From Bacilli bacterium (GTDB taxonomy: Bacteria > Bacillota_I > Bacilli_A > ML615J-28 > CAG-698): DNA of 64,000 bases. Shown one piece after another: positions 22,955 to 44,519 of the stretch. Within the stretch, counting starts at the first letter, position 1; every line of letters starts with the position of its first letter. A program made the translations under genes and the position numbers. The stretch lies in contig JAFZWP010000021.1 of the NCBI GenBank assembly GCA_017617065.1, positions 1 to 64,000 on the forward strand, written 5' to 3'. The notes under the pieces are model-generated. The model saw only the letters and a list, made by a program, of their open reading frames with translations, was not told the DNA's origin and did not search any database.

Positions 22955-22965
22955 AGTTACCACCT

Positions 22966-23994: not shown

Positions 23995-24009
23995 ATTTAT
24001 CTCCTTTTA

Positions 24010-24762: not shown

Positions 24763-24772
24763 ACCTTCTCCA

Positions 24773-24998
24773 ATAAAAAAATCCTTAAACCATATATAGT
24801 TTAAGGACTAGATTTCTAGCGGTACCACCTTAATTAAAGAAAAATTCTTTTCTTTCACTTCATTGACTTTTAACGCTTGCTAGCGGGTATGATTAGTACC
24901 TCTCCAAAGACGAATTCACAAAGTTATTTAAAAGTGTTTCACCATCCCACTTCTCTCTAAATAAATAATCATTTGTTACTACTTCTTTATCTACGATT
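24773..24998 (-). promoter_or_regulatory. T-box riboswitch, Phe-specific
   Basis: The minus strand contains the T-box sequence AAGGTGGTACCGCT (24818-24831), which pairs with uncharged tRNA ends, and a terminator stem (24782-24790 with 24799-24807) followed by T8. A stem I region follows the transcription start, with a specifier-loop context GTGAATTCGTC that offers UUC at 24912-24914, a Phe codon. This matches the pheS and pheT genes downstream. Uncharged tRNA-Phe should favour antitermination and raise expression of the nitroreductase-like gene, pheS, pheT and the genes after them. Confidence 0.95.
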
Positions 24999-25004
24999 TA
25001 ATCC

Positions 25005-27642: not shown

Positions 27643-28212
27643 ATGTATATTCCTTATGTAATTGAAAAATCTAGCCAAGGCGAAAGAAGTTATGATATCT
27701 ATTCTAGATTATTAGAAGATAGAATTATTATGCTTTGTGGGGAAATTGATGATAACCTTGCTAGTAGTATTGTTAGCCAGCTTTTATTCCTAGCAGCTAC
27801 AGATAGTGAAAAAGATATTAGTATTTATATTAATTCACCAGGCGGATCAATTAGTGCTGGTATGGCGATTGTTGATACGATGAATTTAATCAAACCTGAT
27901 GTATCCACAATCTGTGTTGGCATGGCCGCATCAATGGGTGCCTTCATTTTAGCTCACGGTGCTAAAGGTAAAAGATATGCCTTGCCTAATAGTGAAGTTA
28001 TGATTCATCAACCACTTGGTGGCATTCAAGGCCAAGCAACTGATATGGAAATAACAACTAAACATATCATTCGTATTAAAAACAAAATGAACGAAATGTT
28101 ATCTATCGCTACAGGTAAACCTCTAAACGTAATCAAAAAAGATACCGAAAGAGATAATTACATGTTTGCAGATGAAGCTCTAGATTATGGAATCATTGAC
28201 AAAATATTATAA
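27643..28212 (+). CDS. clpP: ATP-dependent Clp protease proteolytic subunit
   Basis: A 189-residue protein, slightly shorter than the usual ~195, with the whole ClpP fold: the Gly-rich oxyanion region [11 protein letters not shown], catalytic Ser97 in GMAASMGA, His122 in MIHQPLGG and the Asp of ERDNYM near 171. It forms the barrel that degrades proteins fed by Clp ATPases. Start is supported by TAGGAGG 6 nt upstream. It is one of few plus-strand genes, monocistronic, with a promoter and a strong terminator. Confidence 0.98.
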
Positions 28213-28242
28213 AAAAGTCTACTCTTCAGAGTAGACTTCTTT
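28213..28242. terminator. Terminator shared by clpP and nagB
   Basis: AAGTCTACTCT (28215-28225) pairs with AGAGTAGACTT (28228-28238); T6 follows on the plus strand and A-rich sequence on the left serves the minus strand. Confidence 0.87.
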
Positions 28243-28243
28243 T

Positions 28244-28975
28244 TTATTTATCAATTAAGCTTGCGGCATCTTCGTCCACAATAATTGTTACATTATCATG
28301 TAAATTTAGGGCAGATGCTGGTAAATCTTCACTTACTTCACCACTAACAAGTTTTGCTATAGCTTCAGCTTTATTTTTACCATTAGCTACAAGTAAAATT
28401 GATTTAGCATTTAGAATGTTTTTAATTCCCATTGTAATAGCATATTTTGGAACTTGGTTGATATCACCATCAAAGAATCTCTTGTTATCTTCTCTAGTTT
28501 TATCAGTTAATTTAATAACTGATGTTTCATTTTTGAATGGAGTACCTGGTTCATTAAAACCGATATGACCATTTGCACCAATTCCTAATAATTGTAAATC
28601 TACAACTGTAGAATTCAATAACTTATTGTATGCTTTACAATTTGCTTGTAAATCAGATCCTTCACTTGAAGGTAAGTGTGTATTTTCTTCTTTGATATCG
28701 ATATGGTCAAATAAGTTAGCATGCATAAATGAATAATAGCTTTCGCGGTGAGTTTTAGGTAACTCGCAATATTCATCTAAGTTATATGATTTAACATCTT
28801 TAAAGGAAATTACACCATCTTCACAAGCTTTAATTAAATTCTTATATAAACCAATTGGGCTAGATCCTGTTGCTAGGCCTAAAGTACAACTTGGATTATT
28901 CTTAACTAAATCAATAATAATTTCAGCGGCTTTTTCGCTTAATTCTTGATAATCTTTAGTAATTATAATTTTCAT
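28244..28975 (-). CDS. nagB: Glucosamine-6-phosphate deaminase
   Basis: A 243-residue protein of standard length with LGLATGSSPIGLYKNLI (phosphate loop), YNLDEYCELP near residue 64 and GIGANGHIGFNEPGTPF near 127, the NagB catalytic motifs. It converts glucosamine-6-phosphate to fructose-6-phosphate and ammonia, feeding amino sugars into glycolysis. It lies downstream of the glycan transport operon on the same strand, separated by a 63-bp gap with a strong hairpin but no clear promoter; a good AGAGG site precedes the ATG. Read-through from the glycan operon is therefore likely, which fits its role as the last catabolic step. nagA is not in the window. Confidence 0.95.
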   Translation of the reverse strand: MKIIITKDYQELSEKAAEIIIDLVKNNPSCTLGLATGSSPIGLYKNLIKACEDGVISFKDVKSYNLDEYCELPKTHRESYYSFMHANLFDHIDIKEENTHLPSSEGSDLQANCKAYNKLLNSTVVDLQLLGIGANGHIGFNEPGTPFKNETSVIKLTDKTREDNKRFFDGDINQVPKYAITMGIKNILNAKSILLVANGKNKAEAIAKLVSGEVSEDLPASALNLHDNVTIIVDEDAASLIDK

Positions 28976-28996
28976 TTTATACCTCTTTCCTTTTAA

Positions 28997-29032
28997 AAGG
29001 TTACATACTTAGGATTTTAAGTATGTAACCTT
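28997..29032 (-). terminator. Intra-operon hairpin before nagB
   Basis: A perfect 15-bp stem (28997-29011 with 29018-29032, 6-nt loop) 6 bp after the last permease gene. The T tract on the minus strand is only T4, so it may be a leaky terminator or an mRNA-stabilising end rather than a full stop. Confidence 0.6.
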
Positions 29033-29038
29033 GGTTTA

Positions 29039-30100
29039 TTACATACCAGTTAAACCAGTACGTTCAATACTTTCTACGAATAATCTTTGAACGAAGAAGT
29101 AACCAATTAATAATGGTACCATCATGATCAAAGCGCATGTATTACCAATCAAACCTACCATTCTTTCGTCAATGATTAAGGCTTCACCGAATATTAATCT
29201 AAACTCTTCATATAATTGTACAACTAGTTTAATTGAAGATGATGAAATGTTAGCAAGTCTAGTAGCGATTGTGTTAATTCCATAAATACTAGCATAATAT
29301 GAATCATTATATTGCCATACAAATGCGAATAACGCTACAGTAATAATTGTACCTCTTGCATTAGGGAACATTACTCTCCAGAATGTTTGAGTAACAGTTG
29401 CACCATCAACTTGTGCTGATTCTTCAAGTTCTATTGGAACATTTCTAAAGAACTGTCTAAATAGATAAATGAAGATTGAGCTACGTAACCCTTGTCCAAA
29501 GGCAGACATGATAAATACTGCGGCACAGTTTCTTAATATTTGCCATGGAACAAATGAACTTGTATATGTAGATAATTTGATTAAGTTAATCCATAAGAAT
29601 CTATTATTTGAGAAGAATAGAGATCTTGTACCTTTCAATGCTTCATCTGGAACTACAATTGCAAATAATACGATATAGAAGAAAATATTACTTCCTTTAA
29701 ATTTTAATCTTGCAAAAGCATATCCAGCAATAGCTGTTGATAATACTTGAAGGACTGTAGTTATAGCTGATAAAGTTAGGCTTACCCAGAATGATCTACT
29801 AAATTGTAAACATTCTAGACCAATCTTATAGTTAACTACTGACCATGTCTCTGGAATCCAAATAACAAGTGGATTATCAGTATCGGTTACATATCTAAAT
29901 GAATAAGATAGTTTTTGAATAAATGGCATTAAAATTATGAAGCATAATCCAATTAATAAGAATGCTCTAAAAATCGATGCAATTGTCGATAATAGTCCTG
30001 TAAGCCTAATCTTTCTTCTAATTGGGTTTTGCATATCTTCTTTGAAGTATGCGATTGCTTCTCTTATTGTCCTAGGTTCTGGTCTTTCATTAATCGTCAT
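29039..30100 (-). CDS. Carbohydrate ABC transporter permease, MalG-type (pair 2)
   Basis: A 353-residue membrane protein with an N-terminal cytoplasmic segment (about 1-35), first helix about 40-65, then five further helices. The ABC permease EAA loop reads EESAQVDGATVTQTFWRVMFPN near residue 235, the site that contacts the ATPase. It ends VESIERTGLTGM, like MalG-type partners. With the 30090-31181 gene it forms the second permease pair of this locus. It overlaps that gene by 11 nt; the weak Shine-Dalgarno suggests coupling. Substrate inferred from neighbours: an N-acetylhexosamine glycan. Confidence 0.9.
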   Translation of the reverse strand: MTINERPEPRTIREAIAYFKEDMQNPIRRKIRLTGLLSTIASIFRAFLLIGLCFIILMPFIQKLSYSFRYVTDTDNPLVIWIPETWSVVNYKIGLECLQFSRSFWVSLTLSAITTVLQVLSTAIAGYAFARLKFKGSNIFFYIVLFAIVVPDEALKGTRSLFFSNNRFLWINLIKLSTYTSSFVPWQILRNCAAVFIMSAFGQGLRSSIFIYLFRQFFRNVPIELEESAQVDGATVTQTFWRVMFPNARGTIITVALFAFVWQYNDSYYASIYGINTIATRLANISSSSIKLVVQLYEEFRLIFGEALIIDERMVGLIGNTCALIMMVPLLIGYFFVQRLFVESIERTGLTGM

Positions 30101-31181
30101 AGTAGAATACCAACCTTGACAAAATTCCTAACACAATAGCAACAATTAATACACTCATCAAGCAGAATACTACAGACATCGCTGCATTAATACCATAATT
30201 TGATAATGTGCCTAAAGTCTTACTTCCATATGTACCTGTACCTTTTGCATACCAAGCTTGAATACTTGTTAAGATTGGTGATCTTAAGAAAGCATCTACT
30301 ACAGTATAAACAGCACAAGTTAACATCATTGGTGATACCATTGGGAATGTAATCTTCCAGAACATATCGTATTGTGTTGCACCTTCCATTTTAGCTGCTT
30401 CATATAGATGTACAGGAACACCTTGAATAGCAGTAAGGAAGATAATAATTTGAATACCTGAGTAACTAATAATATCGTAGATCTTCGTTGAAACGCTACC
30501 GATAAATGATACTAAGAAGTATGGGATACCGGCATTTTGAAGGAACGTACTAAAGTTAAACATTTGAGCGAACAAGTCGTTAGTTGAAGCACTTGCAGCA
30601 GCATTTAATGAACCTGATGTAGATGAAATGGCAGCTGTTACGGCTTGTGAGTTAAAGATAACTGGCACGAAGAATATACTTCTTACAAGTGCACGACCTT
30701 TAAACTTAGAGTTTAAAATTACGGCCATTAATAAACTAAAGATTAAGATTGTTGGAATATCAGTTAACATTGATAATACCGCTTTACTAAAGTTTTCTGT
30801 AAAGTTAGGATCTTCAGTAAAGATATAAATATAATTCTTAAATCCTACACCCCATTGTTCTAGTCCAGCATCTCCAATAGTTACAAAAGAGAAACTATAA
30901 ATGAACATTTGTACAAATGGAATTAAGAAGAAATAGATAAAACCAATTGTTAACGGAATTAAAAAGATTATTCCCCAAATAGCTTTTCTTTTACGATAAG
31001 GTATATGTTTTGCAATCTTGTTTGGTAAATAAGATAAAATCTCACCAAGCTTCTGCATAAACTTTGTTTGTCTTAGCTTGTAGAAGAAATTGCTAATGGC
31101 ATTACCAATCTTATGAAAGAAGTTTTTAATGCCTTGACCTAAGCGACGGAAAAATGGTACTTTTTCTTGTTTTGCTTCCAT
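30090..31181 (-). CDS. Carbohydrate ABC transporter permease, MalF-type (pair 2)
   Basis: A 363-residue protein with a long basic N-terminus (about 1-65, rich in Lys, Arg and Phe) before the first membrane helix near 70-95. The EAA loop is YEAAKMEGATQYDMFWKITFP near residue 250. A poly-Ala/Ser periplasm-facing stretch (near 185-200) is unusual. AAGGAGGG precedes the ATG. It follows the DUF5696-like gene by 21 bp. It would form the membrane channel with the MalG-type partner encoded next. Confidence 0.9.
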   Translation of the reverse strand: MEAKQEKVPFFRRLGQGIKNFFHKIGNAISNFFYKLRQTKFMQKLGEILSYLPNKIAKHIPYRKRKAIWGIIFLIPLTIGFIYFFLIPFVQMFIYSFSFVTIGDAGLEQWGVGFKNYIYIFTEDPNFTENFSKAVLSMLTDIPTILIFSLLMAVILNSKFKGRALVRSIFFVPVIFNSQAVTAAISSTSGSLNAAASASTNDLFAQMFNFSTFLQNAGIPYFLVSFIGSVSTKIYDIISYSGIQIIIFLTAIQGVPVHLYEAAKMEGATQYDMFWKITFPMVSPMMLTCAVYTVVDAFLRSPILTSIQAWYAKGTGTYGSKTLGTLSNYGINAAMSVVFCLMSVLIVAIVLGILSRLVFYYDD

Positions 31182-31202
31182 AATTTTCTCCCTCCTTAAG
31201 TC

Positions 31203-34200
31203 CTATAATTTGTACCAACTATATGCACTAATTGTCTTGCCATCATAAATGACATCACGACTATTAGTATTAACATATAGTTTGATACCATTACTGTATT
31301 CAACTTTCGCAATAAATAAACCATTTACATTGATTGTTTCATGTTTAACTAAATGTCCACCATGAATTCCAAGTTGATTTAATCTCTTTGTCATATCAAT
31401 GATTGTGTCTTTCCATTGATCGAAATGAACACGGTAATATTGAGTATAATCTGTTTCAAGTAAAATTGAATTATCTTTATAAGCTAATTGGAAATATAAG
31501 TTAGAACCAGTTTCAGCTGCTTTAGCTAAATACCATTCAACGCTATAGTCATTGGTACCATTGATGATTTCCATACTATAATCTACAAGTCCGCTTAATA
31601 CTAACTCATAGAAAGGAATAGTATAGTTAACAATTGGATCAAGTGTAGTTGTAAGTGGAGCACCTACAATACTTGAAGCTGAAGCAATTGCATAATCAAA
31701 TGGACGGTTAAGTTGTACTTTATAACCTGCTTCTTTCCAATAATTCATCGCATCGATTTGATAATATTTATTAGCTTCTGCGTAAATTGGATTACTCTTA
31801 CGATAATCACCAATCTTTTCATTGCCTAAGTCAATTAAATAAATACCATTAGCATTTGTCTTAGCAAATGATTTTGTTAAGATTTGTGAAATGTTTTGAT
31901 AGAACTTAGGAGATACAAGATATGTTGGTTTTGATTTTTTATCGTATTGGTTCTTTGATAAATCATATGCATATTCTTTAGCTGCAACGTTACCAACGCC
32001 TCTAGCTGTATATTTAGAATTACCAAATCCAAACTTATATCCTTTATTAGTGGAAATATTTAATTCTGGGTAGAAATCAATACCTTTACTTGCAAAGAAC
32101 TTGCTTAAGTCTTGCATGTCTTTCTTTCCACCTAAAGCATTTGAAATACTAAAGTTACGGCGTAATTTATATTCAAGAGCATCTTGTGTCCAGCCTTTAT
32201 ATGATACTGCCATATCGCTAATTCCATTATCGATTAATTCTTGAACAATTTCTTCAGCTTGTTCGAATGAAGTTAACGCACTCTTCTTATAATAAATTAT
32301 ACCTAATGTTAATTGATAATGGCGGTATGCACCAACCATGTTTAGATTAACTACAGTAGAGTTAGTATCATCAACTGGTGTGATATTGTACTGACTGCAT
32401 AAGTATGATTGATAAATCTTAGCTAAATTAGAATAATCTAGATCAGCTGGTTTTAAGAACCAATAATCATAAACAATATCTGTTGAGCACATATATTCAG
32501 CCCATTTATCAATTTTATAACGATACCATCCATAAGCTAATTCCAACTTTTCGATTTCACGAATATAAGTAGTGAACTTAGCATAGTTATATGGTGTACC
32601 TGAACGATTTGAGTCAGCTGAAAGTGAAGTTAAGTTTGCACCTTTTTTAACTACTCCCATGACACCTTTTCCACTAGCATTGTCTAAGAAGCCAAACATA
32701 GGGAACATAATATCTGGAGTTTGAGCTGTTTGGTTGTTAACTAAGAATGTTTCATCACTACCATAAATCATATGGTTGTAAGCTGAAGCGCCTCTATCTT
32801 CGGCGTGATTGTTGAACTCAATTACTGATCCACATCCATCAGGAAGAACAATTGTTCCTGCATTATCTGTAGCCATATATGATGAAGCTAACATTGGCAT
32901 CATTTCGATACGAGATAATTTACATTTAGCGTTATATTTCTTATCATCATTTTCTGTCCAATTAGATGAATCTAATAAAGAATCGTGAATTACTGATGCT
33001 TCTAAACCTTTATTAGTTAATTTAAATTGGATTGCTACTCTAAATACTGGAAGTAAGAATGAATCAGAGTTTTCACTACCAAAGTATGAAGCTTGTCTTT
33101 CAACTAAATCTACATCATAGAATCCTTGAACTGGTACTAAATTACCATCTTCATCTGTTTCATATAAGTAGTTACCATCTTCATCTTTCGCATGGAAACC
33201 ACCACGATAAACAGGTTCACCATTATCATACTTCAACTCAGTTGTTACGCCACTTGAAGTAACAGTTTGAACATGTTTAACATAGAAGAAATTGTATAAC
33301 TCTTTAGCTGTGGCAGTTGACATACTTGGAATATCAATTGCGTAATATGCTACTTTATTTCCATTTTCATCTACTAATGAATCAGAGATACCAGCATTAT
33401 AATATGAATCAGTTAAGTTACTCCATTCATTGAATGAGAAGAATGGGTTGTAAATTAATGGTGAGTTTTTACAATTCAAATATTCTCCATATGTATTGTA
33501 AAGTGGTTTATCTGGATTTAAATATACACGATATTCGTTTTCATGTACGGTCTTTTCTTTAGGATAATAAGCATCTCCTAAATCTTCATCATCATTATCT
33601 TCATAAATGATTAAGTTTTCGTCTTTTAGATATTGAAGAATATCTTCACCATAGCAATATGCATAACCAGTATATGAAATATTACCAGTTGCCCTTTGTT
33701 GGTTAATGTTTTCCTCAAAACGAATATTTCCACGAAGTAATTCATACCATTCAGACTTTCTTACTTTAGATGGGAAATATGCATCTTTCGAAGCAAATTT
33801 ACCAATGTCGTAGCATACTTGAACGAATCCTTCTTCTTGATTTTCATAGAATGAATAATGACGTTCGTATTCACCTGTTAATTCATTTTTGAAGGCAACA
33901 CTGTTTTCAATAACATTTAAACTACTACCACTTTCTTTTCCATCTTTCTTAATATAATAAAGAATGAAGTTAGAAAGTAGCGATTTTTTGTTTACTTCTT
34001 CTAATACAGGGTTTCCACCATCAATTAAGCCAGTATCTTGGCCCTCAGCTACATATTCACCTTCAGCGTTAGCTTCTGATGGGATAGCTGAAGAATAAGT
34101 TTTGCCAGTTATTTTATCTTCAATTGTAACTACAGTTGTATCTTCATCAAAATACATAATGAAGTTATCATTTTCCGCAATTTTCTTATTCTTGTTTAAA

Positions 34201-34367
34201 GTTTCTTGATCACTAGCTAAAATGAATTTTGAAATATCGAATGTAATATTATCAAATGATTTTGCATTAGCTTTTAAAGCCCCTACAAAATATAACATTA
34301 ATACAATGATTACTAAAATTAGAATCAAGGCTGGAATGATGAACTTAGCTTTTAAAAATCTCATCAT
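31203..34367 (-). CDS. DUF5696-like membrane-anchored extracellular protein, probable TIM-barrel glycosidase-like
   Basis: The 1054-residue protein has one N-terminal membrane helix (about 9-29) and a very large extracytoplasmic part. Residues about 50-600 are beta-rich (substrate-domain or mutarotase-like look); residues about 660-1000 look like a TIM barrel, with SALTSFEQAEEIVQELIDNGISDMAVSYKGW, DFYPELNISTNKG and NANGIYLIDLGNEKIGDY among strand-like blocks. From memory such DUF5696 proteins occur in Bacillota beside sugar ABC genes, Yip1 proteins and beta-propeller proteins, as here. A glycan-binding or glycan-cleaving role at the outer membrane face is inferred; catalytic residues cannot be named. 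It overlaps the Yip1 gene by 4 nt. Confidence 0.7.
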   Translation of the reverse strand: MMRFLKAKFIIPALILILVIIVLMLYFVGALKANAKSFDNITFDISKFILASDQETLNKNKKIAENDNFIMYFDEDTTVVTIEDKITGKTYSSAIPSEANAEGEYVAEGQDTGLIDGGNPVLEEVNKKSLLSNFILYYIKKDGKESGSSLNVIENSVAFKNELTGEYERHYSFYENQEEGFVQVCYDIGKFASKDAYFPSKVRKSEWYELLRGNIRFEENINQQRATGNISYTGYAYCYGEDILQYLKDENLIIYEDNDDEDLGDAYYPKEKTVHENEYRVYLNPDKPLYNTYGEYLNCKNSPLIYNPFFSFNEWSNLTDSYYNAGISDSLVDENGNKVAYYAIDIPSMSTATAKELYNFFYVKHVQTVTSSGVTTELKYDNGEPVYRGGFHAKDEDGNYLYETDEDGNLVPVQGFYDVDLVERQASYFGSENSDSFLLPVFRVAIQFKLTNKGLEASVIHDSLLDSSNWTENDDKKYNAKCKLSRIEMMPMLASSYMATDNAGTIVLPDGCGSVIEFNNHAEDRGASAYNHMIYGSDETFLVNNQTAQTPDIMFPMFGFLDNASGKGVMGVVKKGANLTSLSADSNRSGTPYNYAKFTTYIREIEKLELAYGWYRYKIDKWAEYMCSTDIVYDYWFLKPADLDYSNLAKIYQSYLCSQYNITPVDDTNSTVVNLNMVGAYRHYQLTLGIIYYKKSALTSFEQAEEIVQELIDNGISDMAVSYKGWTQDALEYKLRRNFSISNALGGKKDMQDLSKFFASKGIDFYPELNISTNKGYKFGFGNSKYTARGVGNVAAKEYAYDLSKNQYDKKSKPTYLVSPKFYQNISQILTKSFAKTNANGIYLIDLGNEKIGDYRKSNPIYAEANKYYQIDAMNYWKEAGYKVQLNRPFDYAIASASSIVGAPLTTTLDPIVNYTIPFYELVLSGLVDYSMEIINGTNDYSVEWYLAKAAETGSNLYFQLAYKDNSILLETDYTQYYRVHFDQWKDTIIDMTKRLNQLGIHGGHLVKHETINVNGLFIAKVEYSNGIKLYVNTNSRDVIYDGKTISAYSWYKL

Positions 34368-35110
34368 TTTCGGAACCTCAAAAGATCTCTTTGGGTTATC
34401 TCAGTATATAGTGTATAAAGGAAACCGAACATCTTTTGGAATAATTCATACATTAATAAGATTACAAAGACAATTACGATTGCGGCTATTAAAGTTAAAA
34501 TTAACGAGAATATCGTTTTACCTAAGCCAAATTCATGAATTGTAATCATACCTGTAATGATCATATAACCCATTAATACATAACCTAATGCATAGATTAA
34601 TCTATAAATGGCAAGTTCTGTACCAGTTAAAACATTACTTAATGCTAGAGCAATTCCACTACACCATGCAAGTGGGAATAAAGAATAACATGTCATTAAG
34701 AATATTTCTTTTAGTTTTCCTTTACCATCTAGAATTGTTGTACATGCCCAACTTGCAAATGTATATAACAATATTGGACCAACAATATAAGTTATTTGGG
34801 CAAAGAACTTTAAGTTCTTTAGATCACGGTCACGAATTTCAATCGAAACGTATTGGAAGTCTAGAATGTTAATGATAATAACAGCAACAGCATAGAAGAT
34901 TGCTGGACCCCATTTGGCGCGATGTTCTCTTTGGAACATTGTGAAACCTTTCATTGGGTGGGCAAGAATATAAAGTGGGAACTTAATATATTCTTCCACG
35001 AAATATTTCCAGAATCTTTTAAGCATTCCTAGAAACTTCTTTGCTTTGCTTTCGCTTTGTTCTTCAGAAGATTTATTTAATTGTTGAGTGTCTAATACTT
35101 CTTTTTCCAT
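34364..35110 (-). CDS. Yip1-family integral membrane protein
   Basis: About 248 residues with five to six membrane helices (about 60-80, 95-115, 120-145, 155-180, 190-225), preceded by a soluble segment and the motif YILAHPMKGFTMFQREHRAKWGPAIFYA, which is typical of Yip1-domain proteins. The bacterial function of this family is not established. I start it at the ATG at 35110 because GTGAGG lies 9 nt upstream; the in-frame GTG at 35125 has no site. It sits between the beta-propeller and DUF5696-like genes, so it may help assemble or regulate the import complex. Confidence 0.78.
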   Translation of the reverse strand: MEKEVLDTQQLNKSSEEQSESKAKKFLGMLKRFWKYFVEEYIKFPLYILAHPMKGFTMFQREHRAKWGPAIFYAVAVIIINILDFQYVSIEIRDRDLKNLKFFAQITYIVGPILLYTFASWACTTILDGKGKLKEIFLMTCYSLFPLAWCSGIALALSNVLTGTELAIYRLIYALGYVLMGYMIITGMITIHEFGLGKTIFSLILTLIAAIVIVFVILLMYELFQKMFGFLYTLYTEITQRDLLRFRK

Positions 35111-35111
35111 A

Positions 35112-37262
35112 TTATTCATCCTCACCCATATTTAATTCTTCTTTCTTTTTGCCTTTACCTAATTTCTTACGAATAATCTTAACAACTACTAATACAATTA
35201 CTAAACCAACAACTGTATATAGTACTGGTGGAGCATAGCGTTTAATTAAATTATTTCTATATAATTTATATGCTTCAGAGTATTGTAGTTTATTAGAACC
35301 ACTCTTGAAATATTGCATTGCAATTTTATACTCTTTATCTTTTAAGTATTTCTTACCAACACCAACATATGCATATTCATAGTTAGCATTGAATTTGATA
35401 ACTTTCTTCCAGTATTCTGCTGCTGTATCGATGTCACCACGGTATTCTTGTTCTACGGCTTTATTGATATAACTACCAATTTCAGTTGATACGAATACTT
35501 TTAATTCTTTTGTATTCTTATCTAGAACAACAATATCACCACCATAATATTGAATAGCAACTGGTGCATCTAATACATTAGTGTATTTACCACTTTCACC
35601 AGAGATATAAAGTAGATGTCCTTCATTGTCATATGTGAATAAACGATTACGTTTGCTATCAACTACTGTATACATTCCATATTCATTAACAGCGATTGCG
35701 TTAAAGCTTGATGGACCAACAGCAATTTCAGCACCGTTTGCCGTATCAGCTACATATGTCAAGTCTCCTTGAGGAGGAGCGTATCCATTACGACGTAATA
35801 CATCTTTTCCAGCTGGATTAAGTTTCTTAATCATAGCTGTTGAGTTAACACTACCATTTGAGTTTGTAATTGGTGAAGCTGTACTATAAATAAATGTACC
35901 ACTTACATCTACTGCCATACTTGTAAATGTAGTATTGATGTATGATTTTCTACTTTCGTATTGAGCTTCTGTTGATACTGATAACCAGAATATATCCCAT
36001 GCAGTAAGTGTTACATTGTTAACACCTGTAAATCTCTTATAAATACCACTAGCATCAAATTGAAGAATGCCTTCAAAGACACTATTAGCGATAACATAAA
36101 TTCTACCAGCGTTATCTGTAACAACCTTTTGAGGTTGGAATACTTGAGCATCAAATACTGGTACATTTTCATATTCATTAGGGTTAGTGATAACGATATT
36201 GATCTTTAATGTTTGTGAATCAATACATAATACTTGGTTGTTATCATAATCACAAATGTAAATGAAATCACGGTTATCTAAAGATTCATCCGCAAACTTA
36301 GTGATAACGCTACGATATGTTGATTTAGGGTTAGCTAAACCAATTACATAGTTTTCGTTATTTCTAATTGCAGCTAGTGACATTTCGCTACAATCACTTA
36401 CTAGTTTTGCTTGAACTGCATCTTTATTTGAGAAGTCTGATGCTACATAACTTGCACCTTCTACTTCGTGTAATGTATCGTTTGAATACTTTAATAAGTT
36501 AGCAATGTTGTTAGCTAACATTTTAGCCGAACTTACATCATATACTTCAGGTGTAGCACCTTGATAATCATAACCAATATTAGCTTTTGTACATGCACCA
36601 AGTAAATATTCATTATTTAAGTTAGCAGATGCTGCATATGATAAATACCAAGCCCATTTAGAAGTGAATGCTTTATCTAATTCTAAAATACCTTGTTTTG
36701 TGCTATCCCAACTTGCATCATCTTCACCATTACCAACAAGTATATACTTAGTTGATTCGTAGAAGTTATCTGCGGTAACGTTGCTAAGTGCAAAACCATT
36801 TGCTTTTAATGATTTATTAAATTCTTTTAAGAAATCATCTACGATTCTACTAGCTGAATCATATTTAACTACGATTTCAGAGCCATTACTTCTAATTGCT
36901 TTTAATTGATCATCACTAAATTTTGTTTGATCTAAAACAAATGAGTTATATGAATCAATCATATGGAATGATGTGTCAAGTACATATACTGAATTTGCTT
37001 TTGAATCTGTTAAATACATCTTTACTTCATCAGTAGTTGGATGGTTAAAGATGAAGAAATCTTCAGGAGAAGTTAGGTTACTATAACCAATTCCTAGAGT
37101 TTGACCATCAAAACTATGGTCATAGATTAAGCCTTCTGCTGAATAAATAATCTTTTTGTTGTGGTCATATGAATAACCAGTTGCTGCCTTGCTGTGTAAT
37201 CCTAAACCAACTAAACTGAACGCTAAAACTAGAATGAAGATTTTTGAAATAATTCTTTTCAT
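35112..37262 (-). CDS. Membrane-anchored extracellular beta-propeller (NHL-like) and TPR protein
   Basis: The 716-residue protein has an N-terminal secretion signal (about 1-27, cleavable AxA-type end at HSKAA), a long extracytoplasmic region with propeller-like blades such as DFIYICDYDNNQVLCIDSQT, VVTDNAGRIYVIANS and IAVNEYGMYTVVDSKRNRLFTYDNEGHLLYI, then a TPR-like helical segment (about 610-670), a membrane helix (about 677-697) and a short basic cytoplasmic tail. This is an outward sensor or binding platform tied to the membrane. It overlaps neighbours or lies within 10 bp of them in the glycan operon. The ligand is unknown. Confidence 0.78.
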   Translation of the reverse strand: MKRIISKIFILVLAFSLVGLGLHSKAATGYSYDHNKKIIYSAEGLIYDHSFDGQTLGIGYSNLTSPEDFFIFNHPTTDEVKMYLTDSKANSVYVLDTSFHMIDSYNSFVLDQTKFSDDQLKAIRSNGSEIVVKYDSASRIVDDFLKEFNKSLKANGFALSNVTADNFYESTKYILVGNGEDDASWDSTKQGILELDKAFTSKWAWYLSYAASANLNNEYLLGACTKANIGYDYQGATPEVYDVSSAKMLANNIANLLKYSNDTLHEVEGASYVASDFSNKDAVQAKLVSDCSEMSLAAIRNNENYVIGLANPKSTYRSVITKFADESLDNRDFIYICDYDNNQVLCIDSQTLKINIVITNPNEYENVPVFDAQVFQPQKVVTDNAGRIYVIANSVFEGILQFDASGIYKRFTGVNNVTLTAWDIFWLSVSTEAQYESRKSYINTTFTSMAVDVSGTFIYSTASPITNSNGSVNSTAMIKKLNPAGKDVLRRNGYAPPQGDLTYVADTANGAEIAVGPSSFNAIAVNEYGMYTVVDSKRNRLFTYDNEGHLLYISGESGKYTNVLDAPVAIQYYGGDIVVLDKNTKELKVFVSTEIGSYINKAVEQEYRGDIDTAAEYWKKVIKFNANYEYAYVGVGKKYLKDKEYKIAMQYFKSGSNKLQYSEAYKLYRNNLIKRYAPPVLYTVVGLVIVLVVVKIIRKKLGKGKKKEELNMGEDE

Positions 37263-37271
37263 ACTTTACTC

Positions 37272-38243
37272 CTACTTCATACCAGAATGAGCCATTGTTT
37301 CCATAACTTGTGATTGAGAAATTATGAATACAAGGATTGGCACTAAAATCATAATTAAACTAACGGCAGCTGATATACCTTCTAGGGCTGGTCCACCAGC
37401 AGAAATCTGACTTAAGGCATAACTTACTAACTTATAATCTTCACGATAGATGTAACTTGATCCATCTGCAGACCATAGATCTTGGATTAATAAGATAATC
37501 AAAGTTAACCATGCAGGTTTAACTAGAGGCATAACAATTTTCCAATAAATTCTAAACTCACCAGCACCATCAATCTTAGCTGATTCAAGAAGTTCGGTTG
37601 GTACACCAACCATAAACTGTCTCATTAAGAATAAACCAAGAGATGATTGTAGTGATGGTAAGATTATTGACCAGTGTGTATCAATCATTCCAAACCAGTT
37701 GAAAATGATATAACGAGGAATACCTGTTACGCTGCTTGGGAACATTAATGATAAAGTAATCATTGCTAAGATGAATGCGCCACCAGGAACTTTATATTTT
37801 GCTAGTGGGTATGCACACATTGAAGCAACAAGTAAATGACCAAATGTACCAGCAACAGTAATTAATATAGTATTGAAGAAATATCTTGAGAATGGAACTA
37901 ATGAACTAGTTAGAGCATTAGCCAAGTTTTCAAAGTTTGCAAGTGTTGGTTTACGAACGAAGAATCTTGGAGGGAATAAGAATAATTCATCAAGTGGTTT
38001 GAACGCATTATTAACTGTTAGTAATAATGGTAAGAAACTAAAGATTCCGCAAATCGATAAGAATACGATTAAGGCGATATCTCCACCTGTAGAACGGTTT
38101 ACTCTTTTCTTTTTCTTTGATCTACGATATACCTTCGAATTACTAATTTCTGAGAAAGGACGAGAATCAATTCTAGCAGATTTGATTTCGTTAACATCAC
38201 GTTTAGAACGCTTTACTCTAACTTTTTTAATCTTTTCTGCCAT
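37272..38243 (-). CDS. Carbohydrate ABC transporter permease, MalG-type (pair 1)
   Basis: About 323 residues: a very basic N-terminus (about 1-50, Arg/Lys-rich), six membrane helices, and the EAA loop LESAKIDGAGEFRIYWKIVMPLVKPAW near residue 213. The C-terminus QSQVMETMAHSGMK is typical of MalG-type permeases. I start at the ATG at 38243 with AGGTGA upstream rather than the in-frame GTG at 38252. It forms the first permease pair with the next gene upstream. Confidence 0.92.
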   Translation of the reverse strand: MAEKIKKVRVKRSKRDVNEIKSARIDSRPFSEISNSKVYRRSKKKKRVNRSTGGDIALIVFLSICGIFSFLPLLLTVNNAFKPLDELFLFPPRFFVRKPTLANFENLANALTSSLVPFSRYFFNTILITVAGTFGHLLVASMCAYPLAKYKVPGGAFILAMITLSLMFPSSVTGIPRYIIFNWFGMIDTHWSIILPSLQSSLGLFLMRQFMVGVPTELLESAKIDGAGEFRIYWKIVMPLVKPAWLTLIILLIQDLWSADGSSYIYREDYKLVSYALSQISAGGPALEGISAAVSLIMILVPILVFIISQSQVMETMAHSGMK

Positions 38244-38244
38244 T

Positions 38245-39246
38245 TTATTCACCTACCTTACTAATGATCTTTCTAATCAACTTATTAAGTCCGATAGAAG
38301 CTAAGAATAATAAGGTTGCAATTGCTGAAGCATAACCCATTTCGAAACGTAAGTTACCATAGTCTTGTAAGTGGTTTACAATCGTATGCGCAGCATAGTC
38401 AACTGAAGGGAATCCAGCAAGCGATACTGTAATTGATCCAATACCTAATGTACCAGAAATTTGAATTACGGCACTAAATACAAGTTGTGGCTTCATACTA
38501 GGAAGTGTGATGTACCATAACTCTTGCCATCTATTTTTAACACCGTCAACTGCTGCTGCTTCATATAGTGTTTTATCAACACCTTTTAGACCAGCAACTA
38601 GTGACAAGAAGTTAACACCTAAACTCATCCACAACTGTACTACAATTACAATTGCTAAGATGTATTTAGTATTTGTTAACCATTGAATTGGTTCTTGAAT
38701 TAAACCAAAGCTTACTAGGAACGCATTTGCATATCCATATGAGTCACTTGAGAAGATATATGTCCAAATAGCTAAGGCATTACCTGCAAGTGATGGTGCA
38801 TAGAATACTAATGTAATGATTGGTCGAATACGATCAGGTAATTCATTGATTAGCCAAGCAAATACGAATGCCATGATATAACCAACTGGACCAGTGATTA
38901 CAGCTAGTATTACAGTGTTCTTTAAAGCGGTAATAAAGATTTGGTCATCTAAGAATAAAGTTAAGTAGTTACTAAACCATATAAACTTAGGTGTCTCTAA
39001 CATGTTGTAGTAAGTAAAGCTTAAATATAAACTCATTACAACTGGAATAATTGTGAAGAATAAGAATAATAACAAGAATGGGAACATCATTAAGTATAAT
39101 GTTCTATTCAAATATAGTTTTCTTCTAATTGGTTTACCACGTTTACTCCATTTATCAATCTTTCTACCAGTTTCATTCCACCAGTTAGCAAACTTTTTCC
39201 AGCCTTTAACTAAAAAGTTAGGTTCTTTATTTATTGAGTTTTCCAT
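38245..39246 (-). CDS. Carbohydrate ABC transporter permease, MalF-type (pair 1)
   Basis: A 333-residue membrane protein with a basic N-terminus, six helices (first about 50-75) and the EAA loop YEAAAVDGVKNRWQELWYITLPSMKP near residue 225. It follows the solute-binding protein gene by 14 bp with AAGGAGGG before the ATG, the usual SBP-permease-permease order. It should receive sugar from that protein. Confidence 0.93.
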   Translation of the reverse strand: MENSINKEPNFLVKGWKKFANWWNETGRKIDKWSKRGKPIRRKLYLNRTLYLMMFPFLLLFLFFTIIPVVMSLYLSFTYYNMLETPKFIWFSNYLTLFLDDQIFITALKNTVILAVITGPVGYIMAFVFAWLINELPDRIRPIITLVFYAPSLAGNALAIWTYIFSSDSYGYANAFLVSFGLIQEPIQWLTNTKYILAIVIVVQLWMSLGVNFLSLVAGLKGVDKTLYEAAAVDGVKNRWQELWYITLPSMKPQLVFSAVIQISGTLGIGSITVSLAGFPSVDYAAHTIVNHLQDYGNLRFEMGYASAIATLLFLASIGLNKLIRKIISKVGE

Positions 39247-39260
39247 TATTTCCCTCCTTT

Positions 39261-42200
39261 TTAGCCGTAGTAGTCAGGTGATGTACCAAGTCCGAACTCA
39301 TCACGTTTACGGTTAATTTCGTTATTGATAGTTCTTACATAGTCATCAAGTGTCTCTCGAGGATTTGTTTTATTATTAACTACATATCTAAATGCATTTT
39401 CTAGGTTACGTCCAGTGTAGTATCCACCAGCAACTTCTGGTACACCAACTGTATTTTCCCATTGTTCCATTAATACTGCTAATTCTTCTACTGTCCAAGA
39501 TAATTGTTGGAAGGCTTCAATATTAGCAGTTGGATGACGAGCAGCTGCACCTAAGATAGATTCAATTTCACGAGCGTATTGGATTTGTGTATCAGCACTA
39601 GTCCACCACTTCATGAATTCCCAACCACCTTCTGGATTCTTGGCTTGTTTCATTAACATGATTGCGCTTCCACCAGCGGCTCCATCGATATGTAGGTCAC
39701 CGTTATCATCTACAGTTCCTGGCATTAGGGCAAATTTCCATTTACCTCTAATTTCTGGAGCTGATACTGCTAACGTATTATAAGTTTCATAACTTGCAAT
39801 ACCGATTGGCATTTCACCTGTTCTAAATCTATTGATGAATGTTCCACCACTTACTGAAAGTGAGAAACTATAATCTGTATAGAATGAACACCAGAATTCA
39901 AATGCATTGATTGCTTCTTCTGAATCAAAATTAGATTCCATATATTCTTTACCAGTAGCTTCGTTAATTCTAGTACGATAGAATCTACCGCCAGTTTGAT
40001 ATAAACGGCTAGCAAATACTTGGTTAACTACGCTACTTGCACCAACTGTATTTAGTGGTAAGTAGAATGATAAGTTCTGGAATTGTAATTCTGGAATTAA
40101 GTTAATAGCATCTGTCCAAGTTTGAGGAACATCCCATCCTTGAGCTTCGAAGATATCAGTACGGTAAAACATTACTAGGAATCCTTGAGTATTAGGTAGA
40201 GCATAGAAGCCACCTTCTAACTCATATGGAGTCATCGCACTATCTTGCCATCTTGATGTTGCTTCACCATCAACTTTTACTGAGTAGCTCTTATTTCCAT
40301 TAGCATCAACTTTTTCTTCAACTACGAAATCAGGGAATTGAGTTAAATCATAAATTGCTCCACGGATAGCGTAGTTTACAGGAGTACCATTATCTGCTTG
40401 AATAGCAACATCTGGACCATTTCCAGAAAGTGTAGCAGTTAATAATACGCTACTTGATACTGCTTTTAAGTCAACATTTATTCTATGTTGATGAGTAAAT
40501 GAACTATTTACTAGTGTTCTAATCGCATTAGCTTGTTCACGACCAGCCGATCCACCAGTAAGTAACCATACTTCAATATTTGAATAATCAGCTGTAGCAG
40601 GTGTTTTACCAATTGTTGTGTAATCAAAGAAGAATGATTTTACAAATGCTACAAGCTTAAATCCTAAACCACCAAAGAAGTTTTGATTAGCTCTTGGTAA
40701 TTTGTAATCTTTTGTATGAACATATATTTCATCAATTGTTAATGTTTGTTCTGTAACTGTTAAAATCCAAGTACCTAAAGCAGAAATATTAGAACTAAAT
40801 GTAGATAAGTTACGTTGAATGTTACGAGGCTTCTTAACAAATTTTTCTAACTGTAACGCCATTGTTTCTAATGATGCTGTTTCACCACTCTTTTCACCTG
40901 AAATTTCTGTGATTCTTGCAGCTATTTCTCTTAGTTCTCTTGCATATTCTTTAAATTTACCATCGTTTGCTTCTTCTGTATTAGGATTGTCAAATAATTC
41001 TGGTAATCTTTCTTTTAATTTATAGTTAATATAGTTATCTGGAGATGTACCAGTAATAGCAATAATTTCACGATATACATTATTTAAGTTATCGATAATT
41101 GTTTGTACGCTATTAATTTCACTACCATAATCACCAAGGCTTGCTTCAAGTGCAATAATGTTTTCACCTTGTTTTAGATGGAAGTAGAAATCACCATCTG
41201 CATTACCTAAAGTAACGATACTATAATTAGCACTATAATTAAATTTACAGTTCTTTGCTTCAGCGAATGGAATCTCATTGTTTATACTTACAGTTCTAAC
41301 TGCAAATAGTCCACGTGATGAGTTTTGCTTACATCTTAGAGAGATTTTATATAAGCCATCAACTGGGACATTTACATTCCAACTGATCCAGTCACCTGAA
41401 GTTGACCATTTAGCTCCACCAATTACATTTAAGATAATCTTAACATGATCGGTATTTTGTAAATTGCCTTCACCATCAATATAATGACTTAATTTTGAAG
41501 AACGATCAGATACTGCGTATAGTGTTGATGAAGAACGGTATGAAGCATTTTCAGCTTGAATTGTCCATTCATTTTGATTGATATCCATATGATCTTTATC
41601 AACAATCTTAACGCCATCAGCTATCCATTTGTTATATACGTCTTGATATGAGTCATATTTTTCTTTTGGTGTTAAATATACTTTATAAATACTCATGCAT
41701 TCTCTAACAGCTTCAATTGTTAATTTATGAGTACCTGCTGTAAAGAATACTAAGTAAGGCTCTGTTACATAACCAACTGAATCTTTAGCATAAACTTGAC
41801 GACGGAAGAAATATTCTGCTTGTTCAGGTTTAATTTGGTTGCCATTGATATCAGTGATGATTTCTGCACCAGGTGCATCCATCCATATACGTTGGAATGA
41901 TACATTTAATAATGCATCATATGGAGGTATGTAATTACCATTTGCATCTTGTTCTTCATCAACGATGAATTTACGTTCGATGTTTGCTCCACCGCTTTGT
42001 TCTGCTACATAATCAAGCATGATATTATAGAAACCATCTTGAGGAACATCAAATGTCCAAGTGGCAGAACCAGTCGCTCCCATATATACTACTTTATCGT
42101 TAACATCACTTTGAGCAACTGATAGATCAGTATAAGTAATTTCATCGTATCTAACACTGACTTCGTGTTCTACACCACGATCATCTCTTTCTTTATGAAC

Positions 42201-42503
42201 ATGATTTGAAGTTATTTCTTTGAAATATGTTTCGTTTGTTGAACCTGGAACTAAAACGGCATCTTTAGCTTCTAGTTCAATTGCTTCATCAGGATATAAA
42301 TCTGCATTTTCATAATTATGAAGTTCTAAGTATTTAAGGTATTTACCTGTAGGCGCTACATCTTTCATAATTGTTGAATTGGAAGATATATGGCCTTTAT
42401 TAAAACTTTGAACAATAGCAATTATTAAAATGACAAACACTACAACTCCAAGTGCTATGAAGAATATCTTCTTTAGCAACTTATCAGTAATTACTATTTT
42501 CAT
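39261..42503 (-). CDS. Giant membrane-anchored solute-binding protein with carbohydrate-binding-like modules
   Basis: At 1080 residues it is more than twice the usual length of a sugar-binding protein. The N-terminus has a membrane helix (about 11-33) rather than a lipobox. Two jelly-roll-like modules follow: about 85-275 (GSATWTFDVPQDGFYNIMLDY) and about 310-455 (ISWNVNVPVDGLYKISLRC), reminiscent of CBM6/CBM35-type folds. After a helical linker (about 460-600), the extracellular solute-binding fold runs about 640-1060 (VWLLTGGSAGREQANAIRTLV, GPDVAIQADNGTPVNYA, GGSAIMLMKQAKNPEGGWEFMKWW). It would capture an oligosaccharide and hand it to the permeases. Overlaps the GH20 gene by 4 nt; GGGAGG precedes the ATG. 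Confidence 0.85.
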   Translation of the reverse strand: MKIVITDKLLKKIFFIALGVVVFVILIIAIVQSFNKGHISSNSTIMKDVAPTGKYLKYLELHNYENADLYPDEAIELEAKDAVLVPGSTNETYFKEITSNHVHKERDDRGVEHEVSVRYDEITYTDLSVAQSDVNDKVVYMGATGSATWTFDVPQDGFYNIMLDYVAEQSGGANIERKFIVDEEQDANGNYIPPYDALLNVSFQRIWMDAPGAEIITDINGNQIKPEQAEYFFRRQVYAKDSVGYVTEPYLVFFTAGTHKLTIEAVRECMSIYKVYLTPKEKYDSYQDVYNKWIADGVKIVDKDHMDINQNEWTIQAENASYRSSSTLYAVSDRSSKLSHYIDGEGNLQNTDHVKIILNVIGGAKWSTSGDWISWNVNVPVDGLYKISLRCKQNSSRGLFAVRTVSINNEIPFAEAKNCKFNYSANYSIVTLGNADGDFYFHLKQGENIIALEASLGDYGSEINSVQTIIDNLNNVYREIIAITGTSPDNYINYKLKERLPELFDNPNTEEANDGKFKEYARELREIAARITEISGEKSGETASLETMALQLEKFVKKPRNIQRNLSTFSSNISALGTWILTVTEQTLTIDEIYVHTKDYKLPRANQNFFGGLGFKLVAFVKSFFFDYTTIGKTPATADYSNIEVWLLTGGSAGREQANAIRTLVNSSFTHQHRINVDLKAVSSSVLLTATLSGNGPDVAIQADNGTPVNYAIRGAIYDLTQFPDFVVEEKVDANGNKSYSVKVDGEATSRWQDSAMTPYELEGGFYALPNTQGFLVMFYRTDIFEAQGWDVPQTWTDAINLIPELQFQNLSFYLPLNTVGASSVVNQVFASRLYQTGGRFYRTRINEATGKEYMESNFDSEEAINAFEFWCSFYTDYSFSLSVSGGTFINRFRTGEMPIGIASYETYNTLAVSAPEIRGKWKFALMPGTVDDNGDLHIDGAAGGSAIMLMKQAKNPEGGWEFMKWWTSADTQIQYAREIESILGAAARHPTANIEAFQQLSWTVEELAVLMEQWENTVGVPEVAGGYYTGRNLENAFRYVVNNKTNPRETLDDYVRTINNEINRKRDEFGLGTSPDYYG

Positions 42504-44335
42504 TTAAGCCTCCCTATAAATTTCTCACACATAATCATTACATTAGTGATTTTTTGAATACTATCATCTAATTCACTATATTTGTTTCTCTCTAACCAAA
42601 TATATTTTAATGATTCAATTAATATGTCTTTTTGTTTTAAAATCTCTTTAAATCGTTTAATTCTAAACTTATTGTCATAGTCTTTATTTATTGCTAGCAA
42701 GAATGTAGCTAATGTTTTAAGCAAATGAATTGCAAATGCTAATTCATCTTTAACTAAGTTATCTACATCACAATCAAGTAATTGATTATATTTTGAATCA
42801 TAGAAATCCATGATTGCATTATATTTTTCAATTGTTAATTCCTTGCCTTCCATTCTCTGCACCATATAATCCACATAATCTTCTTGATCTTGATCAAGTG
42901 CATTGAATGCTTGAGTTATTACATGGAATGAATGAGTTGCATTACCTACATAATCATTTTCAAAATGATAATAATTACCTAAGTCTAGGATTAGATCGCA
43001 AATCATTCCACTACTGTCATTAAAGATTTCTCTATTTACAAACTTTCTTGCTTTCTTGAAGGCACCTTCATTACATCTATATGAAAGTAAACCCGCATAA
43101 GCTAAATAAGGAAAAGTAATTGGCAATGGTTGTAAATGACCATTATCGCCCCAATCAGTAAGTAATATTCCTTCACCACCATATTCATGGCAATAATAAC
43201 AAGCATTTAAGATGTTTTCGTAAGCGTCATCTTTTCTTCCTGTTATTGTATTCCAAGTTGATGTTCCGGGTGCTGCTAAGAATTTTATTCCTGCATTAGC
43301 TAATTTCTTTAGATGATCTTTAAATGGGTGTTCTGCTTCATATCCCCATTCAGCAAATATCATATCTTTTGGAATAAGAGGTAGAGCATCATCGTGATTA
43401 ATTAACACATCACCCCAAATAATTGGAATCTTTCCATATTTTTTAATCTCTTCATATGCCTTTAACATATAGTCAATATATACTTTTTCTTCACCATCTT
43501 TTTCTACAGCTTCTTTTGTTTTTTCTAAGCCTAATTCAAATGGTTCATCAAAGTTCATATTGAAGTATTTAGATTTCATATATGGAATCATATCCGCATA
43601 TGTCTTTTTAACTAGTTCAATAGATTCAGGGTCTAAAGCATTTAAAGTAGATGGCTTTCTAAATTTACCCCATTTATACATTCCCGCTTCAGTCTCGCCT
43701 AAATGTTTAAGTTCTGGAATAGCGAGCCATGCACTCATATGACCAAATCCATTCATATTTGGAACAAAATCAATGAATTTAGAATTAGCATATGCTTCTA
43801 TTTCTTGATATTCTTCAATCGATAAATATCCTTCATCATGAAGATACTCTGGAAATGATTTATAACCAAATGAGAATCCTTCCACATACAGCTCTAAATG
43901 ATTCATTTTAAGTTTAGCCATTATATCAATAATTAATTTAACTGTATCTACTTTTGGTACTTTATTACGACTTATGTCGTACATAAATCCACGTACCTTT
44001 AAGTCGGGTTCATCAATTATTGTTTGGCATTGTATAGAATTATCAAAAATTTGTTTTAACGTATTAGTACCGTAGAAGTGTCCTACTGCACTGGATGCAT
44101 AAACTAATATATCTTTTTCACTTACTACTAATTTGTATGCTTCTTCTGGCATTTCGTTATCAATTATGTATTTAAGATTAGCGCTATTTTTATCAGTTTC
44201 ACTAATTTCCACAAACGCTTTCAATTCTTGATATACAAAATCATTCTTTAGTTCACTAAAGACGCTAAGTTTTTCAGGCACTTCAAACACACCATCGTTT
44301 TTAATAACTTGTTTTGGTATAGGAAAAATACTCAT
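42500..44335 (-). CDS. Intracellular GH20 beta-N-acetylhexosaminidase
   Basis: The 611-residue protein has a zincin-like N-terminal domain (about 1-105, LVVSEKDILVYASSAVGHFYGTNTLKQIF), then a GH20 barrel beginning VRGFMYDISRNKVPKVDT near residue 118, with the catalytic Asp-Glu pair at 263-264 in NMNFDEPFELG. GILLTDWGDNGHLQ near 393 is another conserved barrel motif. No signal peptide, so it works in the cytoplasm on imported sugars, releasing GlcNAc or GalNAc from non-reducing ends. It most resembles the cytoplasmic GH20C type of streptococci. It is the first gene of the operon, with AAGGAG before the ATG and a promoter carrying direct repeats. Confidence 0.88.
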   Translation of the reverse strand: MSIFPIPKQVIKNDGVFEVPEKLSVFSELKNDFVYQELKAFVEISETDKNSANLKYIIDNEMPEEAYKLVVSEKDILVYASSAVGHFYGTNTLKQIFDNSIQCQTIIDEPDLKVRGFMYDISRNKVPKVDTVKLIIDIMAKLKMNHLELYVEGFSFGYKSFPEYLHDEGYLSIEEYQEIEAYANSKFIDFVPNMNGFGHMSAWLAIPELKHLGETEAGMYKWGKFRKPSTLNALDPESIELVKKTYADMIPYMKSKYFNMNFDEPFELGLEKTKEAVEKDGEEKVYIDYMLKAYEEIKKYGKIPIIWGDVLINHDDALPLIPKDMIFAEWGYEAEHPFKDHLKKLANAGIKFLAAPGTSTWNTITGRKDDAYENILNACYYCHEYGGEGILLTDWGDNGHLQPLPITFPYLAYAGLLSYRCNEGAFKKARKFVNREIFNDSSGMICDLILDLGNYYHFENDYVGNATHSFHVITQAFNALDQDQEDYVDYMVQRMEGKELTIEKYNAIMDFYDSKYNQLLDCDVDNLVKDELAFAIHLLKTLATFLLAINKDYDNKFRIKRFKEILKQKDILIESLKYIWLERNKYSELDDSIQKITNVMIMCEKFIGRLK

Positions 44336-44493: not shown

Positions 44494-44519
44494 AAAAAAA
44501 CACACACCATTTAGTGTGT
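44494..44519 (-). terminator. Terminator of dusB-queH
   Basis: ACACAC and GTGTGT pair (44514-44519 with 44502-44507), followed by T7 on the minus strand. The queH stop lies in or beside the loop. Confidence 0.7.

Follow-up and report, generated by a model that had tools for sequence, protein, structure and literature searches.

Gene content of the locus

The DNA analysed here, referred to as the window, is a stretch of 64,000 nucleotides (contig JAFZWP010000021.1, assembly GCA_017617065.1) from a Bacilli bacterium of the CAG-698 lineage, and its subject of interest is an operon of ten genes encoding a putative importer of complex glycans. In the order of transcription, these genes code for a GH20 beta-N-acetylhexosaminidase, a giant substrate-binding protein (SBP), a first pair of ATP-binding cassette (ABC) permeases (1a and 1b), a beta-propeller protein, a Yip1-family membrane protein, a DUF5696 protein, a second pair of permeases (2a and 2b) and NagB. 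All ten open reading frames (ORFs) are on the minus strand of the window (Table 1). Their order and coordinates, as given in an initial annotation of this DNA, were borne out by the ORF positions and by the Pfam and NCBIfam families, and so was the tight packing that it described: adjacent genes overlap by 4-14 bp or are separated by 9-21 bp, as far as the second permease pair. Its view of the operon as a sugar importer associated with GH20/NagB catabolism is also supported. A near copy of the operon is found in the yak-rumen metagenome-assembled genome (MAG) RGIG10139, with 83-96% identity for the proteins compared.

Table 1. Features of the importer operon and of its borders in the window (TM, transmembrane segment)
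Feature	Position	Strand	Supporting evidence
Terminator-like hairpin upstream of GH20	44496-44525	minus	promoter-like sites 44495-44463 after it
Dus gene, synteny anchor	45091-46068	minus	
GH20 beta-N-acetylhexosaminidase, 611 aa	42500-44335	minus	Pfam GH20 3e-22, GH20b 2e-13
Giant SBP, 1080 aa	39261-42503	minus	Pfam SBP_bac_1 (PF01547) 2e-21, residues 669-973
Permease 1a, 333 aa	38245-39246	minus	BPD_transp_1 1.5e-11; own orthologous group
Permease 1b, 326 aa, EAA loop ESAKIDGAGEFRIYWKIVMP	37272-38252	minus	BPD_transp_1; own group in permease tree
NHL-type beta-propeller/TPR-like protein, C-terminal TM, 716 aa	35112-37262	minus	profile matches in PDB
Yip1-family polytopic membrane protein, 253 aa	34364-35125	minus	PF04893 1.5e-12
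DUF5696 protein, 1054 aa, TM 10-28	31203-34367	minus	PF18952 6e-129
Permease 2a, 363 aa, EAA loop EAAKMEGATQYDMFWKITFP	30090-31181	minus	BPD_transp_1; own group in permease tree
Permease 2b, 353 aa, EAA loop ESAQVDGATVTQTFWRVMFP	29039-30100	minus	BPD_transp_1; own group in permease tree
16-bp perfect inverted repeat between permease 2b and nagB	28997-29032	minus	no long T-run on coding strand
nagB, glucosamine-6-phosphate deaminase	28244-28975	minus	TIGR00502 above cut-off, 4e-89; Pfam Glucosamine_iso
Terminator-like bidirectional hairpin at the end of the unit, common to convergent clpP	28211-28242	minus	

Conservation of the eight-gene module

We then examined the neighbourhoods of 63 loci, 62 of them untruncated, including those of Butyrivibrio fibrisolvens pNP243 and of a Paenibacillus cellulosilyticus plasmid. 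Comparison of these loci showed that the order giant SBP, 1a, 1b, propeller, Yip1, DUF5696, 2a, 2b is constant in all 62 untruncated loci, from rumen Bacilli to Butyrivibrio and Paenibacillus. The giant SBP is kept in every one of them and Yip1 is present in nearly every locus, a separate Yip1 gene not being called in three. The trio formed by the propeller, Yip1 and DUF5696 was also looked for apart from sugar permeases, which the initial annotation had named as a finding that would refute it, and was never found so among the untruncated loci. The idea of a multi-part uptake machine put forward in that annotation is supported.

DUF5696 is present in four copies in the genome of the window, exceeds the family cut-off in 53 of 100 relatives and reaches up to seven copies per genome. 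In the 100 relatives, DUF5696 and propeller places were at most 7 kb apart for 88 of 100 DUF5696 places and 88 of 94 propeller places, and most of the exceptions were near contig ends. Scans of viral contigs for DUF5696, SBP and Yip1 gave no relatives. A description of the module (DUF5696, two permease pairs, Yip1 with a sugar ABC transporter) was not found in the open literature, subscription journals being mostly outside its coverage; the eight-gene importer is widespread and apparently undescribed.

Permease pairs and their substrate-binding proteins

Four BPD_transp_1 proteins were recognised by Pfam in the operon of the window, that is two pairs of permeases, whereas CUT1 importers have a single heterodimeric pair. 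In a tree of 199 permeases, 1a, 1b, 2a and 2b formed four separate groups (with a low support of 43 for 2a), which indicates that both pairs are old and were inherited together rather than being recent duplicates. The EAA loops, through which permeases contact the ATPase, are intact by pattern in 1b, 2a and 2b; the loop of 1a (EAAAVDGVKNRWQELWYITLP) is one residue longer and was missed by the search pattern, but is recognised as an EAA loop by eye. Apparent permease gaps in 11 loci were artefacts of ORF calling, since stop-to-stop frames show four permease domains in each, and in two of these loci (L037, G000:C18, and L040, G001:C6) a single protein of about 638 aa comprises both permeases of pair 2. 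The operon of the window has no ATPase gene. An orphan UgpC-type gene is located elsewhere in the same genome (G000:C21), no permease being recognised within the 18 kb examined near it, and ugpC is directly upstream of the module in the Paenibacillus copy. A shared ATPase of the UgpC/MsmX type would serve both pairs.

The giant SBP consists of an N-terminal TM (residues 13-31), about 600 aa with two carbohydrate-binding-like stretches and a C-terminal SBP domain (669-978), which is of the SBP_bac_1 type of the extracellular receptors of CUT1 importers. The membrane anchor claimed for this protein in the initial annotation thus stands, as one N-terminal TM, while the two carbohydrate-binding-like modules stay under the cut-offs (Golvesin_C 4e-5, CBM_35 7e-4). 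A single SBP had also been thought to serve both permease pairs. However, a plain SBP or SBP-like gene is found directly upstream of the giant SBP in 24 of the 43 modules outside the GH20 type, so that the sharing of one SBP by two pairs is no general feature. Such an upstream gene is also present in each of the three further modules in the genome of the window (L035-L037); Pfam recognises an SBP in two of these cases, and the third is assigned from similarity alone. In Butyrivibrio and Paenibacillus, plain SBPs are coded downstream of the module. In GH20-type modules, the place of the upstream plain SBP is occupied by GH20, and the obvious candidate for the loader of pair 2 is DUF5696, coded just before that pair.

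These features bear on whether the operon encodes one importer or two. Pair 1 with the giant SBP, and pair 2 with either DUF5696 or a plain SBP, could be independent importers of separate fragments, for example sugar and peptide-bearing ones, the propeller and Yip1 merely assisting their assembly. The separate orthologous groups and EAA loops of each pair, the frequent second SBP gene and the position of DUF5696 before pair 2, like that of the SBP before pair 1, would all agree with such a division, which we regard as a serious possibility though not a probable one; what speaks against it is that a single-pair locus was not found among the untruncated loci, that the gene order is invariant and that the propeller and Yip1 sit between the pairs.

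Propeller and Yip1 proteins

Among known structures (PDB), the profile of the propeller protein matches those of NHL propellers and of TPR proteins, its Pfam NHL match being weak, and the protein has hydrophobic segments at residues 4-22 (signal or anchor) and 679-697 (C-terminal TM). The SBP, DUF5696 and propeller proteins are anchored in the membrane and, judging from their hydrophobic segments, probably face outwards. One large clade consistently has Yip1 joined to the C-terminal end of the propeller protein, and a smaller clade does too, which suggests that the two proteins act together. The module shares with YknWXYZ, the SDP efflux system of Bacillus, the presence of a Yip1-family protein coded with an ABC transporter, and YknW modulates the assembly of its transporter (PMC4887032). 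YknWXYZ is, however, a MacB-type exporter with a membrane-fusion protein whereas the module is a sugar importer.

Relationship of DUF5696 to GH129-like enzymes

DUF5696 profiles matched the PDB entries 5opq (DagB, 2.7e-11) and 5wzq (NagBb, 3e-4), and comparison of DUF5696 with GH129-like enzymes of related genomes by hhalign gave a probability of 99.5%, the likeness spanning the beta-sandwich, the TIM barrel and the C-terminal domain. The catalytic Asp (D435 of NagBb) and Glu, which do not vary among five GH129-like enzymes, are not conserved in 59 DUF5696 proteins, in which D and E together reach frequencies of at most 0.39 and 0.17 at the aligned catalytic columns. DagB and NagBb themselves have just one catalytic residue in common (PMC5698469). 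This lack of conservation makes a binding role more likely than catalysis, and DUF5696 is probably a glycan-binding pseudo-glycosidase related to GH129 and GH101. It differs from NagBb and DagB in its N-terminal membrane anchor and extension and in its obligatory linkage to permeases, as well as in its catalytic positions. The GH129-like profile, together with an aspartate beside the aligned nucleophile site in 23 of the 59 sequences (that of the window included), would also fit a functional glycosidase at the cell surface, representing a new GH family, that trims the glycan before uptake; we consider this unlikely, since none of the sites that never vary in GH129-like enzymes has a conserved acidic residue in DUF5696.

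Five stand-alone GH129-like enzymes of 600-660 aa (L118-L122) exceed the Pfam cut-off of DUF5696, so that databases may label true GH129-like enzymes as DUF5696. They were retrieved by the DUF5696 search, and a search of the phylum sample with Pfam GH129 gave no match. Weak matches of DUF5696 to GH13 alpha-amylases were put down to the likeness that TIM barrels share in general. For DUF5696 and the SBP, AlphaFold models (copies of the window and of L034) had a mean predicted local distance difference test score (pLDDT) of 29-30 and were not used.

Peptidoglycan genes in the GH20-type clade

In the tree of giant SBPs, the window is located in a GH20-type clade of 12 sequences (support 100), nested in a subgroup of five (support 99). 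The neighbours of the loci of this clade and of a second group of GH20-type loci include genes for GHL10, an S66 LD-carboxypeptidase, an M19 dipeptidase, a beta-lactamase-family (AmiE-like) protein, PIG-L, GNAT and a LysA-like decarboxylase, and also for GH3_N (NagZ-like), NagB, NamZ, MupG, AnmK, a MurQ-like SIS protein and BadF-type kinases. In an adjoining group of six modules that lack GH20, the genes immediately downstream are those for NamZ, GH3, a kinase and MurQ-like or MupG/AnmK proteins. Roles in murein recycling are established for AmiE and NagZ (PMC5061867), and the GHL10 domain is known from Cwp19 to be a lytic transglycosylase (PMC6016235).

Counting of NamZ, MupG, AnmK, MurQ, S66, M19, beta-lactamase-family and GHL10 genes showed at least one of them in 23 of the 27 loci of the clade and in none of the 35 loci outside it, a contrast whose p-values are only indicative given the kinship of the loci and the support of 85 for the grouping of 27. 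When the count was restricted to 3.5 kb around the core, as a control for unequal flank lengths, the values were 22/27 and 0/35. Most of the peptidoglycan enzymes of the clade are without a signal-like N-terminus, the exceptions being secreted NAGPA and a minority of GHL10 proteins, which suggests that large fragments are probably imported largely intact and then digested. The context as a whole suggests that the importer of the window's branch takes up fragments of bacterial cell walls and not host glycans.

Uptake of a host-type N-acetylhexosamine glycan, as proposed in the initial annotation, is left unsupported by this context. GH20 and NagB would fit a supply of mucin or milk oligosaccharides, and DUF5696 is related to the alpha-N-acetylgalactosaminidases of GH129 and GH101. 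We nevertheless hold this substrate to be very improbable: no sialidase, fucosidase, GH112 or GH101 was seen among the identified neighbours of the related GH20-type loci, in which peptidoglycan genes recur, the nearest relative is a yak-rumen MAG and DUF5696 has no conserved catalytic pair. GH112 (galacto-N-biose phosphorylase) was considered for neighbours of 720-760 aa and rejected, those scanned being NAGPA, GHL10 or Big_2 proteins.

Several proteins of these loci combine or accompany such functions. Natural fusions of a NagZ-like GH3 with NagB, of about 755 aa, are found in GH20-type operons (L067:13212-15491 of G021 and L068:4139-6400 of G008) and support a joint role of the two in the recovery of N-acetylglucosamine (GlcNAc). 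M19 proteins of about 730 aa in the loci of G011, G013 and G019 (L139-L141) probably also have a LysA-like (diaminopimelate decarboxylase) domain, a combination that suggests use of murein peptides. In seven loci of a second family of the order (L053, L064-L066, L152, L153 and L156), genes for secreted NAGPA (a phosphodiester glycosidase) and for a small DUF624 membrane protein come directly after pair 2.

The reduced copy of the window

GH20 has neither a signal peptide nor an N-terminal hydrophobic segment and is thus predicted to be cytoplasmic; its motif NMNFDEPFELG has the FDE pair at residues of about 263-264. The Dus gene of the window is the one that stands upstream of peptidoglycan genes in several relatives, in which the interval from Dus to GH20 holds LysA-like, M19, AmiE-like, GNAT, PIG-L, S66 and GHL10 genes. 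In the window, the intervening genes and the GH3 gene are absent and the operon keeps only GH20 and nagB as enzymes. Synteny thus indicates that this operon is a reduced form of the peptidoglycan-linked module.

Borders of the operon and flanking genes

The unit is bounded on both sides by terminator-like hairpins (44525-44496 upstream and 28242-28211 after nagB). Within it, the gap between permease 2b and nagB is 63 bp long and holds the hairpin seen in the initial annotation. The hairpin is present, but the coding strand continues with no more than a short TTTT, so that it is not a convincing terminator and nagB is probably transcribed by read-through. Beside the end of the operon (25078-27516), the window codes for a protein of 812 aa with a lipoprotein-like N-terminus, a low-complexity linker and DUF4886 at residues 414-657. 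Farther on (20549-25002, minus strand), a T-box leader (24800-25002) is followed by a nitroreductase-like gene, pheS and pheT.

Discussion

We consider it fairly probable that the eight products from the giant SBP to permease 2b belong to one co-inherited uptake system, that its cargo in the clade of the window is peptidoglycan fragments and that the copy of the window is reduced. The two CUT1-type permease pairs would form the core of this system. A complex glycan would be captured on the outer side by three proteins, namely the giant SBP and the GH129-like DUF5696, both anchored, and the propeller/TPR protein. Yip1, attached to the propeller, would organise the complex within the membrane, a part played by YknW in a different ABC transporter. 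The giant SBP would load pair 1, DUF5696, or the plain SBP where present, would load pair 2, and the shared UgpC/MsmX-type ATPase would drive both. In the clade of the window, peptidoglycan fragments would enter largely intact and be dismantled in the cytoplasm; for the operon of the window itself, the cytoplasmic GH20 would release GlcNAc from the imported fragment and NagA and NagB would use it.

Several points weigh against this reading. Related loci are not independent observations, and the mapping of the catalytic positions of DUF5696 relies on a distant profile alignment whose local confidence is low around the catalytic strands. Outside the clade, modules come with different enzymes, such as GH43, so that peptidoglycan is not a substrate of the module in general. 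The genome of the window, 98.75% complete, gave no hit for AnmK, NamZ, GHL10 or MurQ, the MurQ search being weaker as it used a single-protein query; the organism can therefore probably use only the GlcNAc part of a fragment and not N-acetylmuramic acid (MurNAc), and the substrate of its copy may by now be a different GlcNAc glycan, for instance chitobiose. It is conceivable, even if we lean away from it, that the copy of the window imports chitin-type or other GlcNAc oligosaccharides, as from rumen fungi or chitin, the link to peptidoglycan being confined to relatives. The retention of GH20 and nagB only, the missing MurNAc genes and the presence of two NagA genes in the genome argue for such a substrate, whereas the giant SBP stays in the peptidoglycan-linked clade and its likeness to the NgcE-type chitin SBP is weak (32.7 bits with TIGR03851, for a cut-off of 399.65).

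We would class the module as a variant of CUT1 ABC import, one branch of which is linked to peptidoglycan fragments. It has in common with MalEFGK, UgpABCE, MsmEFGK and NgcEFG an SBP_bac_1 receptor, BPD_transp_1 permeases with EAA loops and, likely, an ATPase of the UgpC/MsmX type, and differs from them by its two permease pairs, its anchored SBP of 1000 aa and its obligatory propeller, Yip1 and DUF5696. The Gram-positive clusters for murein recycling are murQ-murR-murP-amiE-nagZ-ybbC in B. subtilis and mupG-murQ-murP in S. aureus, both species using MurP of the phosphotransferase system (PTS) for MurNAc or its disaccharide. The loci of the relatives share with these clusters genes for NamZ, NagZ-like GH3, AmiE-like, MurQ-like and MupG proteins. 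Uptake would, however, be of the ABC type instead of the PTS type, most of the enzymes of the relatives' loci lack signal peptides, and the LD-carboxypeptidase, M19 and LysA-like genes suggest peptide-bearing fragments, unlike in the known recycling clusters. YejBEF-YepA is an oligopeptide-type importer of a Gram-negative bacterium and is not known to have a propeller, Yip1 or DUF5696. This system of Agrobacterium is reported to be an ABC importer of muropeptides (PMC9790009), and what the module would share with it is an ABC route for murein fragments in bacteria without AmpG.

The uptake of large glycans, and of muropeptides especially, by Gram-positive bacteria of the gut and rumen is poorly known, and the module described here is widespread, has a fixed architecture and includes a family of unknown function. 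The analysis points to a specific cargo in one clade, from gene context, and gives DUF5696 a definite candidate role, that of a glycan-binding pseudo-enzyme. Two permease pairs, a pseudo-glycosidase receptor, a propeller and a Yip1 scaffold acting as one machine that imports whole peptide-bearing oligomers of peptidoglycan would make up a new class of Gram-positive multi-component ABC importers, a tentative proposal that we would not yet call probable; if true, this machine would be a functional counterpart of the SusCD and AmpG routes of Gram-negative bacteria. The module is a candidate ABC route for the scavenging of cell walls by bacteria that feed among lysed neighbours.

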